From Anaerophilus nitritigenes (GTDB lineage Bacteria > Bacillota > Clostridia > Peptostreptococcales > Thermotaleaceae), in assembly GCF_004138215.1 (NCBI RefSeq), contig NZ_RYYS01000062.1, positions 1 through 35,584 of the forward strand: a stretch of DNA of 35,584 nt, given 5' to 3'. The notes beneath the pieces are model-generated. The model was not told where the DNA came from. It saw only the letters and a program-made list of their open reading frames with translations, and did not search any database. The position numbers and the translations under genes are program-made. Below are positions 17,839 to 35,584 of the stretch, piece by piece (the first letter of the stretch is position 1; each line of letters begins with the position of its first letter).

Positions 17839-18677
17839 TAGAAGAAATTATTAAAAATGCACTCATAGAAGATATGAATGATAAAGATTTGACTACAGAG
17901 CTTTTAATAGATGATATTTTAAAATCTACAGCTTATATCATAGCAAAGGAAGATGGTGTTTTAGCTGGAATTTTAGTTGCAAAAGAAGTATTTAAAATAT
18001 TAGATCCTACTATTTCCTTTGATATTTTAAAAGAAGATGGAAGCATTATAAAAAAAGGAGAAAAAATTGCAAAGATCAAAGGAAAAACAAAAACTATTTT
18101 AAAAGGAGAAAGGACAGCTCTTAATTTACTTCAAAGAATGTCAGGAATTGCATCTTTAACGAATAAATATGTAAGTACTATCAAACAATATTCTACAAGA
18201 ATTGTAGATACAAGAAAAACTACTCCTAACTTAAGAATTTTAGAAAAATATGCAGTTTCTGTAGGAGGAGGATACAATCATAGATTCAATTTATCAGATG
18301 CAGTAATGATTAAGGATAATCATATTAAAGCTGTTGGAGGAATTAAAAAAGCTATTCAAAAGGCTAAAGAAAATATCCCCCATATAGTAAAAATAGAAAT
18401 AGAAGTTACATCCTTAGAAGAATTAAAAGAAGCACTAGAGGAAGGTGTAGATATTATCATGCTTGATAATATGGATATATCTACAATGGAGAAAGCTGTA
18501 AAAATAAATAACAAACAAGCTATACTTGAGGCTTCAGGAAATATTACAATAGAAAGAGTAAAAGAAATCGCAGCTATAGGAGTAGATATAATATCAGTAG
18601 GGGCTCTGACTCATTCTGTAAAGGCTATGGATCTGAGTTTATTATTTGTAGATGGAGGAGAAAAGATTGAAGAGTAG
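17820..18677 (+). CDS. nadC: Quinolinate phosphoribosyltransferase NadC
   Basis: This 285-residue enzyme (carboxylating nicotinate-nucleotide pyrophosphorylase) joins quinolinate and PRPP to give nicotinate mononucleotide, the third step of the operon. Family blocks are EDMNDKDLTTELL near the start, GERTALNLLQRMSGIA, VDTRKTTPNLR (phosphate-binding arginines), KDNHIKAVGG and IEVEVTSLEE-like strands, and ASGNI/ISVGALTHS at the end. The ATG lies inside nadB with GAGGAG before it. Length matches the family. The 3' end overlaps the EIIC-like gene. Confidence 0.95.
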   Translation: MYNQFLVEEIIKNALIEDMNDKDLTTELLIDDILKSTAYIIAKEDGVLAGILVAKEVFKILDPTISFDILKEDGSIIKKGEKIAKIKGKTKTILKGERTALNLLQRMSGIASLTNKYVSTIKQYSTRIVDTRKTTPNLRILEKYAVSVGGGYNHRFNLSDAVMIKDNHIKAVGGIKKAIQKAKENIPHIVKIEIEVTSLEELKEALEEGVDIIMLDNMDISTMEKAVKINNKQAILEASGNITIERVKEIAAIGVDIISVGALTHSVKAMDLSLLFVDGGEKIEE

Positions 18678-19698
18678 ATTTTCTTTTAGAGATTATATAA
18701 CAAATGCATTAAATGGAATGGCTTTAGGACTTTTTTCTTCTTTGATTATAGGCCTTATATTAAAGCAAATAGGAGAATATACAAATATTTCTTTTTTAGT
18801 AGATTTCGGAAGAATTGCTCAATTTTTAATGGGTCCTGCTATTGGTGCAGGAGTAGCGTTTAGCATAAAAGCACCTCCACTTGGAATATTTGCATCTATT
18901 GTAACAGGAGCTATAGGAGCAGGAACTGTTGTACCTATGGATACATCTTTTACCATTACTATAGGAGAACCTGTAGGGGCATTTATAGGATCATTAATAG
19001 GAGCTGAATTTGCTAAAATAGTATCAGGAAAAACAAAAATAGATATTGTGATCATTCCACTAGGAACCATATTGGTAGGGGGATGGGTAGGAGTGTTTAT
19101 AGGCCCTTTTATATCATCTTTTATGAAGGAATTAGGAGCAATGATCAATCATGCAACAGAGCTTCAACCTATTCCTATGGGGATATTAGTTGCAGTTTTA
19201 ATGGGAATGATTTTAACTCTTCCTATAAGCAGTGCAGCACTATCTATTTCTTTAGGACTTAGTGGACTAGCAGCGGGGGCTTCTGTAGTAGGGTGTGCAA
19301 CACAAATGATTGGATTTGCTGTTGCAAGCTACAAAGAAAATGGATTTGGAGGAGCAATTGCTCAAGGAATTGGAACATCTATGCTACAAGTCCCAAATAT
19401 CATTAGAAATCCTCTTATATGGATACCACCTACCCTAGCTAGTGCTATTTTAGGACCTATTGCTACTACTATTTTAAGAATGGAGAATAATAGTATAGGT
19501 GCTGGAATGGGAACAAGTGGATTGGTAGGGCAATTTGGAACCATGGCTGTTATGAAAGGAACAGAGCCTATGGAATGGATTGTAGGTAAAATTATAATCC
19601 TTCATTTTATTCTTCCTGCCATACTTACACTTATCATTTCTAATTATATGAGAAAAAAAGGATGGATTAATCTTGGTGATATGAAATTAAATCCATAG
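18667..19698 (+). CDS. EIIC-like membrane protein (PTS_EIIC_2 type) in the nad operon
   Basis: This glycine- and isoleucine-rich integral membrane protein of about 343 residues has roughly nine or ten membrane segments and matches the PTS_EIIC_2-type family, proteins related to sugar-permease EIIC but usually without EIIA/EIIB partners. No PTS partner is in the window. The start is TTG 18667: GGAGGAG (18654-18660) is 6 nt upstream, whereas the in-frame ATG at 18652 has no site. The gene overlaps the end of nadC, so it is co-translated with the NAD pathway. That context suggests transport of a pathway-related compound, such as a pyridine precursor or aspartate, but nothing in the sequence proves the substrate. 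Confidence 0.78.
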   Translation: MKSRFSFRDYITNALNGMALGLFSSLIIGLILKQIGEYTNISFLVDFGRIAQFLMGPAIGAGVAFSIKAPPLGIFASIVTGAIGAGTVVPMDTSFTITIGEPVGAFIGSLIGAEFAKIVSGKTKIDIVIIPLGTILVGGWVGVFIGPFISSFMKELGAMINHATELQPIPMGILVAVLMGMILTLPISSAALSISLGLSGLAAGASVVGCATQMIGFAVASYKENGFGGAIAQGIGTSMLQVPNIIRNPLIWIPPTLASAILGPIATTILRMENNSIGAGMGTSGLVGQFGTMAVMKGTEPMEWIVGKIIILHFILPAILTLIISNYMRKKGWINLGDMKLNP

Positions 19699-23353: not shown

Positions 23354-23460
23354 AAAGGCAGAGTAGGTATTTGTGCGTAAAGTGCTAAAAGAAAGGGAAG
23401 TTATCTTTTAGACGAAAGGCGTTATTAAGCTTGCGATACATATGCTGCATTCCGCTGCTG
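23354..23460 (+). promoter_or_regulatory. THF (tetrahydrofolate) riboswitch
   Basis: The leader contains the conserved THF aptamer elements in order: GGCAGAGTAGG (from 23357), GTGCGTAAAGTGC, AAGGGAAGTT, GACGAAAGG, and the closing GCATTCCGCTGCT (to about 23459), whose end pairs with the initial GGCAG. It precedes a FolT-like transporter, the classic target. Downstream, two exclusive pairings are possible: 23460-23468 with 23475-23485, or 23475-23484 with the ribosome binding site 23498-23507. This suggests translational control, with folate lowering expression. Confidence 0.9.
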
Positions 23461-24997: not shown

Positions 24998-25014
24998 ATT
25001 TTAAACATGAGCAA

Positions 25015-25247
25015 AGACAATGAAGGGAAATAGTAAATGATATAGTTTCTTTAGAGAGTCGGTGGAAGGTGCAAACCGATGAAGCTTATGATTGAATCCA
25101 TCCCTAAGTCACAAACTGAACTAAAAGTAGGTTTTGTCGGGTGCGACCGTTATATCGCTATAAGGTGGACTGAAATATTCAGCCAACAAGGGTGGCAACG
25201 CGGAAGAATAACCTTTCGTCCCTATTTTTAGGGATGGAGGGTTTTTT
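25015..25247 (+). promoter_or_regulatory. T-box leader (tRNA-Ser responsive) with terminator
   Basis: The leader has the T-box elements in order: AGTAA bulge (from 25031), apical-loop GGTGCAAACCGAT (about 25069-25081), specifier loop GAATCCATCC with the serine codon TCC at 25097-25099, and the T-box AAGGGTGGCAACGCGG (25188-25203). Its TGGC can pair with the GCCA end of tRNA-Ser (discriminator G). The terminator stem 25210-25223 with 25230-25243 is followed by T residues. Uncharged tRNA-Ser would favour the antiterminator and serS expression. Confidence 0.95.
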
Positions 25248-29539: not shown

Positions 29540-29962
29540 ATGAAACTAGATAGTATTGATGTAGCCAGAGCATCAGTTGAAATTGCTATTTCTTCTTCAA
29601 GAACTATGGAGGAAGAACAAATACAAAAGCTAAAGGAAAAAGGAATAAAAGGTGCAGCTGTAGATATAGGGGGAAACTTAATTCAGTCTATTCCTAAGAT
29701 TATTGAAAGAGCTATTATTGCATCTAGAAAAACAGGGGTTATAAAAGAGTCTCATGTGTATGATGGAGCTGTAGCAGGAGCAGCAAGAGAGGCAATCATG
29801 CAGGTTGCTATGAAGGCAAATGGACTCAATGTAGGAGGAAAGATCGGAATTGCAAGGAGCGGAGAACATTTAAGTGTATGTATTTTTATGAGTATAGGAC
29901 TACTTCATTTAAATGAAGTAGTTATGGGACTTGCACATCGTTCTGTACCAGAGCATATATAA
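29540..29962 (+). CDS. HutP-family RNA-binding regulator
   Basis: This 140-residue protein fits the HutP family. HutP of Bacillus is a hexamer that binds L-histidine and Mg2+ and then binds spaced UAG triplets in mRNA to control a terminator. The core IIERAIIASRKTGVIKE...GAAREAI, the GGKIGIARSG strand and the C-terminal GLLHLNEVVMGLAH follow the family. Aligned with my memory of B. subtilis HutP, H138 is kept (H123 here) but the metal ligands H73 and H77 fall on G76 and G80. Ligand choice may therefore differ. TTGGAGGTG precedes ATG 29540. No hut genes are nearby; instead a leader rich in UAG and an ABC importer follow, its likely targets. Five UAGs also lie before this gene (29460-29508), which may mean autoregulation. 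Confidence 0.85.
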   Translation: MKLDSIDVARASVEIAISSSRTMEEEQIQKLKEKGIKGAAVDIGGNLIQSIPKIIERAIIASRKTGVIKESHVYDGAVAGAAREAIMQVAMKANGLNVGGKIGIARSGEHLSVCIFMSIGLLHLNEVVMGLAHRSVPEHI

Positions 29963-29979
29963 ATATTTCAAAAATAGGA

Positions 29980-30008
29980 TTGACATTTATATAGGATTGA
30001 AATATAAT
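29980..30008 (+). promoter_or_regulatory. Perfect consensus promoter of the ABC importer leader
   Basis: TTGACA (29980-29985) and TATAAT (30003-30008) are 17 nt apart, an exact sigma-70/sigma-A consensus. Transcription should begin near 30014-30016, only a few nt before the first UAG. Such a strong promoter suits a gene whose output is set by the leader RNA. Confidence 0.92.
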
Positions 30009-30019
30009 ATGATAAAAAT

Positions 30020-30105
30020 TAGTAGGCAACTAGTAGGCAGTTTTGTAGAATGGTAGAAATGTAGTTTGAAAAAAGGTAGCTTAGGTAGAATGGTAGGGAG
30101 AATAG
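30020..30105 (+). promoter_or_regulatory. UAG-triplet array, probable HutP-family RNA target
   Basis: Twelve UAG triplets lie in 86 nt, starting at 30020, 30023, 30031, 30034, 30046, 30054, 30062, 30077, 30082, 30086, 30094 and 30103. Base composition would predict one or two. The commonest start-to-start gap is 8 nt. HutP binds UAG triplets separated by 4 nt (period 7), and TRAP binds (G/U)AG with 2-3 nt spacers, so this is similar in kind but different in spacing. The adjacent gene upstream encodes a HutP-family protein. The array ends 31 nt before a terminator. Binding is inferred. Confidence 0.75.
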
Positions 30106-30124
30106 AAGTCCTTTTAAAGGATTT
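30106..30124 (+). repeat. Small hairpin between the UAG array and the terminator
   Basis: AAGTCCTT can pair with AAGGATTT (one G-T pair) around a very short loop. It may act as a spacer or anti-antiterminator element in the leader. Confidence 0.4.
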
Positions 30125-30136
30125 ATTTGTGTATGC

Positions 30137-30163
30137 AAAAACTCTCTTACTGGGAGTTTTTTT
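30137..30163 (+). terminator. Leader (attenuator) terminator upstream of the ABC importer
   Basis: AAAAACTCTC (30137-30146) pairs with GGGAGTTTTT (30152-30161, one G-T pair) around a 5-nt loop, with T residues to 30163. It lies between the promoter and the importer genes, so it must be read through for expression. AGGGAG at 30095-30100, inside the UAG array, could pair with CTCTCT at 30142-30147 and break this stem. Confidence 0.85.
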
Positions 30164-30184
30164 ATTTTTAAAAATCAAAATAAT

Positions 30185-30206
30185 TAGGAGGATGGTAGTA
30201 TGGTAG
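30185..30206 (+). promoter_or_regulatory. Second UAG cluster over the ribosome binding site and start codon
   Basis: UAG occurs at 30185, 30196 and 30204, the last two 8 nt apart. The first overlaps the ribosome binding site AGGAGG (30186-30191) and the others flank ATG 30200. A protein bound here could block initiation, giving a second, translational control layer. Confidence 0.5.
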
Positions 30207-31189
30207 GGAAAAATTTATTTAAAAAAGTAGCACTATTTTTAGTAGGTGTAGTATTTTTGGTAGGATGTAGTGGACAAACAACTTCAGATAATCAAAAGGA
30301 AAAGATTCAAGTAGGTATTAGTCAAATTGTTGAACATCCAGCACTAGATGCAGCAAGACAAGGTTTTGAAGATGCTTTAGAAGAAGAGTTTTCAGAAAAG
30401 GTAAATATTGATTTTCAAAATGCTCAAGGAGATATTCCAACAGCCCAAGTTATTGCAAAAAACTTTGTATCACAAAAAAAAGATATGATATTTGCTATTG
30501 CAACACCAGCAGTACAAGCAGCTTTTAATGCTACAAAGGAAATTCCAATTGTAATGGCTGCAGTCACAGATCCTGTAAGAGCAGAATTAGTAAATTCTTT
30601 AGAAAAACCAGGAACAAATGTAACAGGAACTATTGATATGGCACCTATAGATCAACAGTTTCAATTATTAAAAACATTGATTCCTAATGCAAAGAAGGTA
30701 GGGATTTTATACAATACAAGTGAAATCAATTCAGAAATTCAAATGGAAATGGCAAAGAAGGAAGCGAACAAATTAGGATTAGAAGTCATTACATCAGGAG
30801 TTACGAATGTAAATGAAGTATCACAAGTATTAAGTAGCTTTTTAAAGGATGTTGATGTTTTATATACTCCTACAGATAACTTAGTAGCATCATCTATAAC
30901 ACTGATTACTTCAGAATGTACAAAAAAAGGGATTCCTGTAATAGGAGCAGAAGAAGCTCATGTAAAAGGTGGAGCTTTAGCAACAGAAGGAATCGATTAC
31001 TACAAATCAGGATTTGAAGCAGGAAAAATAGCTATAGAAATATTAAAAGGAAGAGATCCAAAGGATATAGCGATTAGCCTAGCAAAGGATAATCAATTGG
31101 TGATCAATATGGATGTCGCTAAAAAATTGAATATTCAAATACCAAAAGACTTACAAAATAAAGCACAAATTGTAGAAAGTGGTGAGTAA
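30200..31189 (+). CDS. TrpX-type ABC substrate-binding lipoprotein
   Basis: This 329-residue lipoprotein has a signal peptide with lipobox LVGC (C23) and an ABC_sub_bind domain (TrpX group). Blocks include VGISQIVEHPALDAARQGFEDAL, ATPAVQAAFNATKEIPIVMAAVTDPV, PGTNVTGTIDMAPIDQQF and GVDYY-like ATEGIDYYKSGFEAG. Characterised relatives capture aromatic amino acids such as tryptophan, tyrosine or phenylalanine. It is the first gene of a three-gene importer. AGGAGG lies 8 nt before ATG 30200. Expression appears to be controlled by the UAG-rich leader and terminator upstream. Substrate is inferred from family only; regulation by a HutP-type protein would also allow histidine. Confidence 0.88.
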   Translation: MVGKNLFKKVALFLVGVVFLVGCSGQTTSDNQKEKIQVGISQIVEHPALDAARQGFEDALEEEFSEKVNIDFQNAQGDIPTAQVIAKNFVSQKKDMIFAIATPAVQAAFNATKEIPIVMAAVTDPVRAELVNSLEKPGTNVTGTIDMAPIDQQFQLLKTLIPNAKKVGILYNTSEINSEIQMEMAKKEANKLGLEVITSGVTNVNEVSQVLSSFLKDVDVLYTPTDNLVASSITLITSECTKKGIPVIGAEEAHVKGGALATEGIDYYKSGFEAGKIAIEILKGRDPKDIAISLAKDNQLVINMDVAKKLNIQIPKDLQNKAQIVESGE

Positions 31190-31190
31190 T

Positions 31191-32096
31191 ATGGACTTTT
31201 GGATTAATATATTAGAACAAGGATTATTGTTTGGAATTATGGTATTAGGAGTATATATTACTTACAAAATACTAGATTTTCCAGATCTTTCGGTAGATGG
31301 GAGTTTTCCTCTTGGAGCGGCAGTAACAGCTGCTGCTCTTATCAAGGGGATACATCCTATTTTTGCTATTTTCTTATCATGTATAGCTGGAATGATGGCA
31401 GGCGCAGTGACTGGATACCTTCATGTAAAAATCAAAATAACAAATTTATTATCGGGTATTTTAGTAATGATTGGATTATATTCTATTAATTTAAGAATTA
31501 TGCAAAAAGCTAATGTTCCTCTTTTTAATCAAAAAACTATTTTTAGTATAGGGATACAACCTATTTGGATTATTTTATTATTTGCATTATTTATCAAAAT
31601 TTTATTAGATATTTTTCTAAAAACAAAGTTTGGATTTTTATTAAAAGCTACAGGAGATAATCCTCAATTGGTTACTTCTTTAGGGATAGATATAGGTTTT
31701 ACAAAGATAGTTGGGCTTATGCTGTCTAATGGACTTGTAGCTTTATCTGGATCATTAGCAGCCCAATATCAAGGGTTTTCAGATATAGGAATGGGTACAG
31801 GAATTGTTGTAATGGGGCTTGCATCCATTATATTTGGAGAAGCCGTTTTAAGAAAAGTTTCATTTATTCTTCCTACAACTATGGCTTTAGTAGGTTCTAT
31901 GCTTTATAAAATGAGTATGGCTTTTGCACTCAAATTGAGATTTCCAACTACAGATTTAAAATTGATTACTGCTGTGATTGTAGCATTAGCACTGGCATTA
32001 AATGAGAAAAAAATTGGAGCTTCTATTAAAAAAATATTTATAGTAGGAGGTGAGTGTCCTGTTACAAATACAAAATCTATCAAAAACATTTCATAA
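31191..32096 (+). CDS. ABC importer permease (TrpY-type)
   Basis: This permease of about 301 residues has eight or more membrane segments and belongs to the branched-chain-permease-like group that partners TrpX proteins. Visible blocks are VLGVYITYKILDFPDLSVDGSFPLGAAV near the N terminus and ATGDNPQLVTSLGID, the likely coupling region with the ATPase, followed by GLVALSGSLAAQYQGFSDIGMGTGIVV. ATG 31191 is preferred, with GGTGAG before it; GTG starts at 31179 and 31182 are too near or lack a site. It begins one nucleotide after the lipoprotein stop codon and is co-transcribed. Confidence 0.88.
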   Translation: MDFWINILEQGLLFGIMVLGVYITYKILDFPDLSVDGSFPLGAAVTAAALIKGIHPIFAIFLSCIAGMMAGAVTGYLHVKIKITNLLSGILVMIGLYSINLRIMQKANVPLFNQKTIFSIGIQPIWIILLFALFIKILLDIFLKTKFGFLLKATGDNPQLVTSLGIDIGFTKIVGLMLSNGLVALSGSLAAQYQGFSDIGMGTGIVVMGLASIIFGEAVLRKVSFILPTTMALVGSMLYKMSMAFALKLRFPTTDLKLITAVIVALALALNEKKIGASIKKIFIVGGECPVTNTKSIKNIS

Positions 32097-32853
32097 AGAT
32101 ACAGTGAATGAAAAAATAGTATTTGAAAAATTTTCATTGCAGGTAGAAAAAGGAGATTTTATTACGATTATAGGAAGTAATGGAGCGGGAAAATCTACTC
32201 TTTTAAATATGATATCTGGATCTATTCCTATGGATATGGGAAATATTCTTTTAAGAGAAAAAGACATTTCTAAGGAAGCAGAATATAAAAGAACAAAAAT
32301 GATAGGAAGAGTATTTCAGGATCCTACCATGGGAACATCTCCATCTATGACTATATTTGAAAATCTTTCTATGGCAGCTCATAAGGGTAAGAAATTTAAT
32401 TTAACTATGGGTATTTCTAAAAAAGATATTTCTCAATTTATAGACTTAGTAGGACAGCTTTCTTTAGGACTGGAGGAGCAGATGAATACTAAGGTAGGAT
32501 TGTTATCTGGAGGACAAAGGCAAGCATTAGCTCTTTTGATGTCTACGATTTCAAATCCTGATGTTCTTTTGTTAGATGAACATACAGCAGCTCTGGATCC
32601 AAGGACTTCTGAAAGAATTATAGAACTGACTCAAAAGATTGTAGAAGAAAAAAAAATTACAACTTTAATGGTAACTCATAATCTTCATCAAGCTATATCC
32701 ATAGGCAATAGATTGATTATGATGCACAAAGGAAATATTATATTAGATATAAAGGGACAACAAAAAAATGAATTAACTATAGAGAAGCTTTTAAATTGTT
32801 TTGAAACAGTTCAGAAGGACGATGTATTTAGTGATCGATTGCTATTTTCATAA
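32059..32853 (+). CDS. ABC importer ATPase (TrpZ-type), probable CTG start
   Basis: This ATPase of about 264 residues has Walker A GSNGAGKST (39-47), Q-loop in VFQDPTMGTSPSMT, signature LSGGQRQAL and Walker B DVLLLDEHTAALD, then MVTHN. It powers the importer with the upstream permease. The perfect ribosome binding site AGGAGG (32045-32050) is 8 nt before CTG 32059, which gives MLQIQNLSKTF, the start expected for the family. The only in-frame GTG, at 32050, overlaps the site itself, and GTG 32054 is out of frame. The coding start lies inside the end of the permease gene, so translation is coupled. The function is certain; the CTG start is inferred. Confidence 0.88.
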   Translation: MLQIQNLSKTFHKDTVNEKIVFEKFSLQVEKGDFITIIGSNGAGKSTLLNMISGSIPMDMGNILLREKDISKEAEYKRTKMIGRVFQDPTMGTSPSMTIFENLSMAAHKGKKFNLTMGISKKDISQFIDLVGQLSLGLEEQMNTKVGLLSGGQRQALALLMSTISNPDVLLLDEHTAALDPRTSERIIELTQKIVEEKKITTLMVTHNLHQAISIGNRLIMMHKGNIILDIKGQQKNELTIEKLLNCFETVQKDDVFSDRLLFS

Positions 32854-33506: not shown

Positions 33507-33524
33507 TAATAGTTAATAAATAAA

Positions 33525-33655
33525 ATAATGCTGAATTCTAAATAGAAGCGGGGGACCCTTTTTAGGGGGCGAATTCCATAAGGATAGGATAACTCTTTCA
33601 ATCCGAGCCCGACAGCTAACCTCGTAAGCATTGAAAGAGGAAACAACGGCATAGA
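33525..33655 (+). promoter_or_regulatory. c-di-AMP riboswitch (ydaO/yuaA class)
   Basis: The leader holds the class hallmarks in order: GCTGAATTCTAA (from 33530), AGCGGGGGACCC (from about 33547), GGGGGCGAATTCC, and CCGAGCCCGACAGCTAACCTCG with the closing GTAAGCATTGAAAGAGGAAAC. ATGCTG (33528-33533) pairs with CGGCAT (33647-33652) as P1. It precedes a potassium transporter, the main target of this class; c-di-AMP binding normally turns such genes off. P1 overlaps the first bases of the terminator stem. Confidence 0.95.
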
Positions 33656-35411: not shown

Positions 35412-35450
35412 GGAGCCTTTAAATCGGTCCAGAGAGACTGAAAAGGATGT
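35412..35450 (+). promoter_or_regulatory. PyrR-binding loop (pyrimidine attenuator)
   Basis: TCGGTC (35424-35429) and GACTGA (35436-35441) form a stem around the hexaloop CAGAGA, and CCTTT (35416-35420) can pair with AAAGG (35442-35446) below it. This is the PyrR recognition hairpin (TCCAGAGAG core). UMP-bound PyrR would hold it and allow the terminator downstream to form. The controlled gene (pyrR, uraA or the pyr operon) lies beyond the window. Confidence 0.9.
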
Positions 35451-35496
35451 GAAAAGAAAAGATACACATATAGTGATATCTATTCTTAATGTAATC

Positions 35497-35528
35497 AAAA
35501 CCTTTTGTCTCTTGGCAAAAGGTTTTTT
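35497..35528 (+). terminator. Terminator of the pyr attenuator
   Basis: AAAACCTTTTG (35497-35507) pairs perfectly with CAAAAGGTTTT (35516-35526), followed by T residues to 35528. No coding start is seen in the remaining 56 nt. Confidence 0.9.
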
Positions 35529-35584
35529 GGCTCTATGTCAATAGTTGGGGTGGGATTGTTCATAATCCTGCTCCATTACTTTAT

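Follow-up and report, generated by a model that had tools for sequence, protein, structure and literature searches.

A HutP-family protein and UAG-repeat sites at a TrpX-type importer operon: a candidate regulator of aromatic amino acid uptake in Clostridia

The hutP-trpX locus of Anaerophilus nitritigenes

Contig NZ_RYYS01000062.1 of Anaerophilus nitritigenes (GCF_004138215.1) was analysed from position 1 to 35,584, and this whole stretch is called the window below. On its forward strand, a gene for a HutP-family protein of 140 amino acids (29540-29962) stands directly upstream of an ABC importer operon, which encodes a substrate-binding lipoprotein (SBP) of the TrpX/CD0873 family with the tyrosine-type pocket residues Glu and Tyr (30200-31189), an ABC permease (31179-32096; PF02653, BPD_transp_2) and an ABC ATPase (32050-32853; PF00005). 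Against the TrpX equivalog model the SBP reaches 322 bits, short of the 390-bit cut-off. A scan of ten ORFs between 24454 and 35072 brought up no hut enzyme, and the neighbours of hutP are a dehydrogenase gene and the importer operon.

Between hutP and trpX lie a sigma-70-type promoter (29980-30008), agreeing with TTGACA-17-TATAAT at 12 of 12 positions, and two clusters of UAG triplets, the first with seven (30020-30064, including UAGUAG and UAG-N5-UAG-N5-UAG) and the second with five (30077-30105); the UAGs of relatives are also clustered. They are followed by an intrinsic terminator at 30137-30161, the single one located in the intergenic region by the terminator finder against 0.2 expected. 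The original prediction, which had described a HutP-family gene, a perfect promoter, 12 UAG triplets in 86 nt, a terminator after this array and a TrpX-type importer downstream, is borne out in all these parts. In 2000 dinucleotide shuffles of the intergenic region, 12 UAGs in 86 nt never arose (mean 4.6, maximum 9), and 30020-30105 is the densest 90-nt UAG window on either strand. Another patch (9 UAGs in 90 nt) occurs on the minus strand at about 19379-19471, inside the ORF 18652-19698.

What the original prediction had overlooked is that the ribosome-binding site (RBS) and start codon of trpX are themselves built from UAG units. This site, TAGGAGGATGGTAGTATGGTAG (30185-30206), consists of two 8-nt UAG units, places three UAGs around the Shine-Dalgarno sequence and the start codon, and belongs to a second dense patch with 9 UAGs at 30185-30270.

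A T-box or another Rfam RNA was considered as the sensor in the leader and was dropped: T-box RF00230 gave no match in the trpX leader of the window, and no Rfam RNA was found at curated thresholds in that leader or in the loci of 12 relatives scanned. Elsewhere, the window holds further known RNA switches, namely the sole T-box at the curated threshold, upstream of serS (25011-25226), a THF riboswitch (23357-23459), a c-di-AMP riboswitch upstream of a TrkH potassium transporter gene (33519-33644) and a PyrR binding site (35412-35532).

The assignment of the HutP-family protein is firm, as PF09021 is matched along its full model length (E 1.1e-43, 149 bits, cut-off 25), compared with 111 bits for B. 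subtilis HutP. The best Foldseek matches of its AF2 model (mean pLDDT 91) are HutP chains (E 2.7e-9), and in the VIA comparison HutP fills the first six rows, with 1vea at Z 17.7 (rmsd 2.2, 128 residues, 23% identity) and the next row at Z 9.2. A PDB sequence search with clostridial HutP profiles did not reach Bacillus HutP, even at E 10. Among 141 aligned relatives, Gly44, Glu56, His72, Gly99-Gly100-Lys101, His110, His133 and Arg134 are invariant, and Gly45 and Arg106 are nearly so. In Bacillus, HutP is known as the antiterminator of a single histidine operon, and an HxxxH motif together with a later His forms its metal/histidine site; in helix 72-93 of the window protein the second His is absent, and alignments to Bacillus HutP disagree here. 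Divergent members of the family (88-93 bits) were also observed at L105 and in four other matches from GTDB family f45, three genomes of which (G095, G167 and G267) carry a divergent and an ordinary HutP.

Spacing of the UAGs and their co-occurrence with HutP

The spacing of the UAGs was assessed in 63 unique trpX leaders from which the RBS site had been taken out. UAG pairs at a distance of 8 nt are enriched 6.3-fold (162 observed vs 25.5), those at 16 and 24 nt 3.3-fold, those at 3 nt 3.9-fold and those at 30 nt 3.6-fold, with only 1.6-fold enrichment at 7 nt, which is the period of the Bacillus hut UAGs. The main gap of 8 nt claimed at the outset is correct as a period of 8, that is, as 5-nt spacers. 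Of 162 such spacers, 140 have G as their last nucleotide, and the commonest are AAUGG and UAUGG; the repeat unit is about NAUGGUAG.

Within the own GTDB family, HutP is present in 10 of 16 genomes, the window's genome counted. Nine of the 16 contain one RBS site each at no more than two mismatches; all nine have HutP, have the site at the best TrpX match and bear UAG clusters in the leader, and the tenth HutP-positive genome, where the RBS pattern has no match, is 76% complete. The array stays with the importer gene: in G392 and G402, where hutP and trpX are 1.7-1.9 kb apart, it remains beside trpX. Three of the genomes with an RBS site also encode TrpX paralogues (51-53% identity), and these showed no array in the 450 nt of upstream sequence covered.

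For a wider view, 391 genomes of the class Clostridia were sampled, 127 of which encode HutP. Perfect matches to the RBS pattern GGAGGANNGTAGNATGGTAG occur in 24 genomes, of which 23 have HutP, and matches with at most one mismatch in 35, of which 30 have HutP (kinship ignored in both counts); the reversed pattern, as read from the table, matches in 4 of the 391. The array pattern GTAGN4GTAGN4GTAG was found in 39 genomes, 29 of them HutP-positive, and after removal of six genomes with exact tandem repeats the proportion is 28 of 33, kinship again being ignored. The reversed array pattern, with 22 HutP-positive genomes among 69 (odds ratio 0.97), shows no association. HutP and UAG arrays are hence associated in Clostridia, as the 28 of 33 non-simple arrays against the base rate of 127 in 391 illustrate. 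Matches in two of the five HutP-negative genomes with non-simple arrays (G313 and G203) precede no recognised target, and in the other three (G039, G170 and G320) the array does precede one. A HutP profile search in these three and in G274, genomes that are 83-96% complete, gave no match and had no positive control. Conversely, 87 of the 127 HutP-positive genomes lack both a perfect RBS site and a non-simple array.

A scan of 84,980 species gave 97 stretches, of which 80, from 76 genomes, were listed. By their titles these genomes are all Bacillota or near, with the exception of one 'Bacteroidetes' MAG; Haloplasma we take to belong in or near Bacillota. HutP is present in 72 of the 76 genomes (kinship ignored): 53 loci in 52 genomes show it within 8 kb, and further search adds 20. 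The remaining four comprise three with chance-like targets and one genome of 1.7 Mb. On clustering of the listed matches, 62 of 81 sites are TrpX-like, 11 are SSF and 3 are NSS. Of 54 TrpX sites picked by a motif, 49 are preceded on the same strand by hutP at no more than 2.5 kb (median 255 bp); four of the other five have just 241-966 nt of upstream DNA available, and at the fifth (L226) hutP is more distant and on the opposite strand.

A test independent of the motif used 80 of the best 85 TrpX-like matches below the window's own, from 77 genomes, with five omitted without inspection (two from G340 and the second copies of G350, G314 and G205), and counted as an array at least two UAG-N5-UAG within up to 750 nt upstream. 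Arrays are present in 18 of 39 leaders from HutP-positive genomes vs none of 41 from HutP-negative genomes (p 1.8e-7, kinship ignored), and the reverse-strand control yielded 0.05 per leader in both groups alike. A simple T-box motif lies upstream of TrpX genes in 11 of 41 cases in HutP-negative genomes vs 5 of 39 in HutP-positive ones.

Gene order around hutP was read in neighbourhoods of up to 10 kb on either side, fetched for 40 of the 127 genomes, in 35 of which the hutP ORF was recognised. The layout of the window, here called type B (hutP, UAG array, terminator, UAG-containing RBS, trpXYZ), recurs at L089, L100 and L103; beyond the own family, the layout is seen in GTDB families f26, f36 and f46. 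In 27 of the 35, here called type A, a cytidylate kinase gene lies one or two genes downstream of hutP, and 11 of these have hutP, an AroH-type chorismate mutase gene and then directly the cytidylate kinase gene; the gene names are our own reading, except for CM_1 (Pfam). No adjacent UAG array was seen in type A neighbourhoods. Many hutP genes among L067-L106 lie in a conserved cluster that apparently has an FAD oxidoreductase and an RpiR-like regulator upstream and genes for AroH, cytidylate kinase, a PlsC-like protein and IspH-S1 downstream (names mostly our own), with no adjacent array. Autoregulation of hutP through UAGs at type A gene ends, which had seemed rich in them, was rejected as a candidate, given 91 UAGs vs 82.8 expected under synonymous reshuffling of 37 genes (1.10x). 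Outside the last 90 nt of these 37 genes, UAG is rarer than in synonymous reshuffles (143 vs 210).

Targets, ligand and sign of control

Sites that are unlinked to hutP precede a varied set of genes. TrpXYZ importers, matched to the window SBP, are represented by L141-L143, L146 and L165. DAHP synthase genes follow the sites at L113 (one mismatch, Pfam) and, by eye, at L112 (one mismatch) and L182, and DAHP synthase with prephenate dehydrogenase is found at L147 (the second gene partial and below cut-offs) and by eye at L287. The tryptophanase/tyrosine phenol-lyase family is represented by L139, with 566 bits on the subfamily model, and by eye by L293 in the HutP-negative G170. Symporters of the SSF and NSS types and a lactate-permease-like protein, of which one member each was scanned, are targets as well, as are a LysE-type exporter (L140), an HMGL-like protein (L137) and an acyl-CoA ligase (L153). 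For the lactate-permease-like, LysE, HMGL-like and acyl-CoA ligase targets the aromatic link is not obvious. At L138 the array is at an AroH-like gene immediately after hutP. UAG sites at the HMGL-like aldolase were seen in two HutP-positive genomes (L137 and L107), and this enzyme may serve aromatic metabolism. Taken together, the target genes suggest that the UAG sites form a trans-acting regulon of mostly aromatic amino acid genes.

These findings bear on two points raised at the outset. The proposal that the protein acts on the array and sets importer expression is well supported by conservation and by the co-occurrence of HutP and arrays; such action would not be merely local, since sites also occur unlinked to hutP. 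The case named as contradicting it, namely a protein that is kept while the adjacent array is lost, does occur. It can be explained by intervening DNA in G392 and G402, where the array has followed trpX, and in several other genomes by a distant hutP with sites at unlinked targets.

Tyrosine is a likelier candidate than histidine for the amino acid that is sensed, as judged from the importer pocket and from T-boxes on NSS targets. According to passages of the work on the C. difficile importer protein CD0873, Glu-263 contacts the tyrosine hydroxyl as a specificity residue, and Tyr-279 is a second specificity residue, replaced by Gln in the tryptophan-bound pneumococcal protein (PMC6816091). In a sequence search of the PDB, CD0873 is also what the window SBP matches best (308 bits, against 210 for pneumococcal 3lft), and in the alignment the window SBP has Glu and Tyr at the two specificity positions, with the same 16-residue separation that the CD0873 chain shows. 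This pair is E/Y in 68 of 92 unique SBP relatives, D/Y in 18, E/F in 2, and other or unaligned in 4. TrpX paralogues without arrays are likewise E/Y, so that the pocket residues bear on the importer and not on the array. Three of four NSS targets (L181, L230 and L290) have a T-box just before the UAG-containing RBS, two of these T-boxes scoring under the Rfam cut-off (86.7 and 82.2 bits against 93); all three show UAC at the specifier position in our own reading and are taken as tyrosine-specific. The fourth (L229) has no T-box directly before the gene. The NSS genes at L181, L230 and L290 could each be under two amino acid sensors.

The sign of control was approached by leader folding. When the RNA of the window ends before the 3' arm of the terminator, the predicted fold pairs AGGGAG at 30095-30100, which overlaps the UAG at 30094, with CUCUCU at 30142-30147 in the terminator 5' arm, the two strands of this possible antiterminator being separated by a hairpin (30106-30124). 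Comparable helices occur in other leaders: in 21 of 39 terminator-bearing leaders the terminator is preceded by UAG(G)GAGA, which faces UCUCC-type arms, and in others (e.g., L141 and L146) a UAG pairs with the arm via different sequences. Taken as a whole, the leader of the window has no excess stability over shuffles (z 0.54).

Of the 63 unique leaders, 24 have no terminator by a simple finder and may rely on the RBS site; L124, L223, L038 and L233 were set aside for a wrong hairpin. This left 35 leaders including L168 for the ensemble test, and 34 without L168, plus four unlinked ones, for the arm-pairing tests; the arm class 'GGAGA' takes in all leaders outside other classes, and UAG(G)GAGA is present in 20 of the 34 kept. 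In an equal-choice test on these 38 leaders, own arms pair at -9.24 kcal/mol vs -7.86 for arms of other classes (p 4e-5, kinship ignored), and shuffled own arms average -6.80 kcal/mol, with 35 of 38 leaders pairing better with the real arm. Two cases deviate: for the arms of f26, segments of other classes are equally good partners, and L165 prefers foreign arms to its own. A larger gap (-9.24 vs -6.21 kcal/mol) was discarded as biased, because the best UAG had been picked for the own arm alone. Ensemble pairing compared with shuffled arms shows a modest difference, with best-8 values of 5.55 vs 4.59 and 94% vs 79% at 3 or more. Given the possible helix between UAG and terminator arm and the UAG units within the RBS, we propose, with moderate support, that the bound protein represses, opposite to Bacillus hut: UAGs held in the protein would be kept from pairing with the arm, and the terminator would be favoured.

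A proposed mechanism and its alternatives

We propose that this HutP-family protein is an RNA-binding regulator of the uptake and metabolism of aromatic amino acids, most likely tyrosine. Loaded with the amino acid, it would bind UAGs every 8 nt (NAUGGUAG) both in the leader and at the RBS of trpX. In the unbound state, a UAG of the array and the sequence after it would pair with the terminator 5' arm as an antiterminator, and the importer would be transcribed; in the bound state this pairing would be blocked, the terminator would fold and transcription would stop, and occupation of the RBS site would add a block of translation initiation. In other Clostridia, where hutP lies elsewhere, the protein would act in trans on like sites at mostly aromatic genes. 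This scheme starts from the computed family, fold, conservation, spacing, co-occurrence and target genes; binding and ligand we infer, and so too the sign, for which support is moderate. We assign the full mechanism, with a tyrosine-type regulator, UAG binding, termination plus translational block and trans targets, a probability of roughly 0.65. A broader generalisation is tentative and, in our judgement, falls a little short of even odds: clostridial HutP might be a widespread tyrosine-sensing trans repressor acting via NAUGGUAG repeats at leaders and start codons, and the histidine antiterminator of Bacillus a specialised offshoot of an aromatic family whose members mainly repress.

The same protein and array could instead work as in hut, with histidine-loaded protein preventing termination and thereby switching the importer operon on. 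We regard such positive control as unlikely: the protein does share family and fold with Bacillus HutP, and the opposing antiterminator is only moderately supported, but the array lies clear of the terminator arms, one UAG falls in the possible antiterminator instead, and a UAG site over the RBS and start codon fits repression. Moreover, aromatic amino acid genes make up most of the recognised targets, and the second His of HxxxH is missing from helix 72-93 in the window protein, on an ambiguous alignment. It is rather improbable that a different RNA-binding protein reads the arrays and that HutP merely adjoins them. The four HutP-less genomes with plausible sites would agree with such a reader, and binding of the arrays by HutP is itself a prediction; against it, HutP co-occurs with the sites even where these are unlinked to hutP. 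TRAP, a candidate for this role, was ruled out for the family by the absence of its domain TrpBP (PF02081) from all 16 genomes in a search that detects it in B. subtilis, and repeated UAG/NAG triplets are the known RNA target of HutP (PMC7430163). Finally, the RBS consensus does contain the frame AUG GUA NNN UGG UAG (Met-Val-X-Trp-stop), and a short upstream ORF of this kind could sense tryptophan by ribosome stalling, the UAGs being its stops. This we hold to be very improbable: UAGs with the 8-nt spacing lie far upstream of the RBS, even where the gene has no such frame at its start, and a period of 8 is not divisible by three. In addition, the first AUG follows immediately on the Shine-Dalgarno sequence, and the importer pocket is of the tyrosine type.

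The proposed repressor can be compared with several systems. TRAP (MtrB) controls trp genes and trpP in Bacillus, where its binding favours termination and can block the RBS. Repeated NAG triplets, termination or RBS block and an aromatic amino acid are thus common to both, whereas the proteins are unrelated and the spacers are 5 nt here vs 2-3 nt in TRAP. The C. difficile CD0873 tyrosine importer is the best PDB match by sequence of the window SBP and has the same two specificity residues. Streptococcal trpXYZ is under a Trp T-box (PMC9382623) and is alike in that a leader controls a homologous importer by amino acid supply; there a T-box RNA senses tRNA, whereas our reading of the window involves a protein and a leader without an Rfam match.

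Passages of three papers (PMC7430163, PMC8934654, PMC12456014) present HutP as the Bacillus antiterminator of a single histidine operon; these passages, like those of PMC10415144, concern HutP of Bacillus or the hutP operator there. The B. subtilis HutP/hut attenuator and the window system are alike in Pfam family, fold and clustered UAG/NAG triplets in a leader with a terminator. Differences from hut are the sequence divergence, which keeps B. subtilis HutP out of reach of the clostridial profile, the 8-nt period, the RBS operator, the clostridial targets in uptake and aromatic metabolism, which would also be reached in trans, the predicted opposite sign (for hut, see PMC7430163) and probably another ligand. 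A search of titles and abstracts in the open-licence PMC literature returned no paper on HutP in Clostridia or with aromatic amino acids. Relative to Bacillus HutP, the target class, the 8-nt period, the RBS operator and the trans action thus appear to be new, and probably also the ligand and the opposite sign.

Roughly one in three of the sampled Clostridia (127 of 391) encode a member of the HutP family, and part of these genomes have a recognisable UAG operator at tyrosine or aromatic genes. This operator is short enough to be searched for in any genome. If the proposed mechanism is true, it would define a regulon open to testing, bring in a new class of ligand and perhaps show that the sign of control has reversed inside one protein family. 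Some Clostridia turn aromatic amino acids into signalling metabolites, and for these organisms such a regulon would be relevant.
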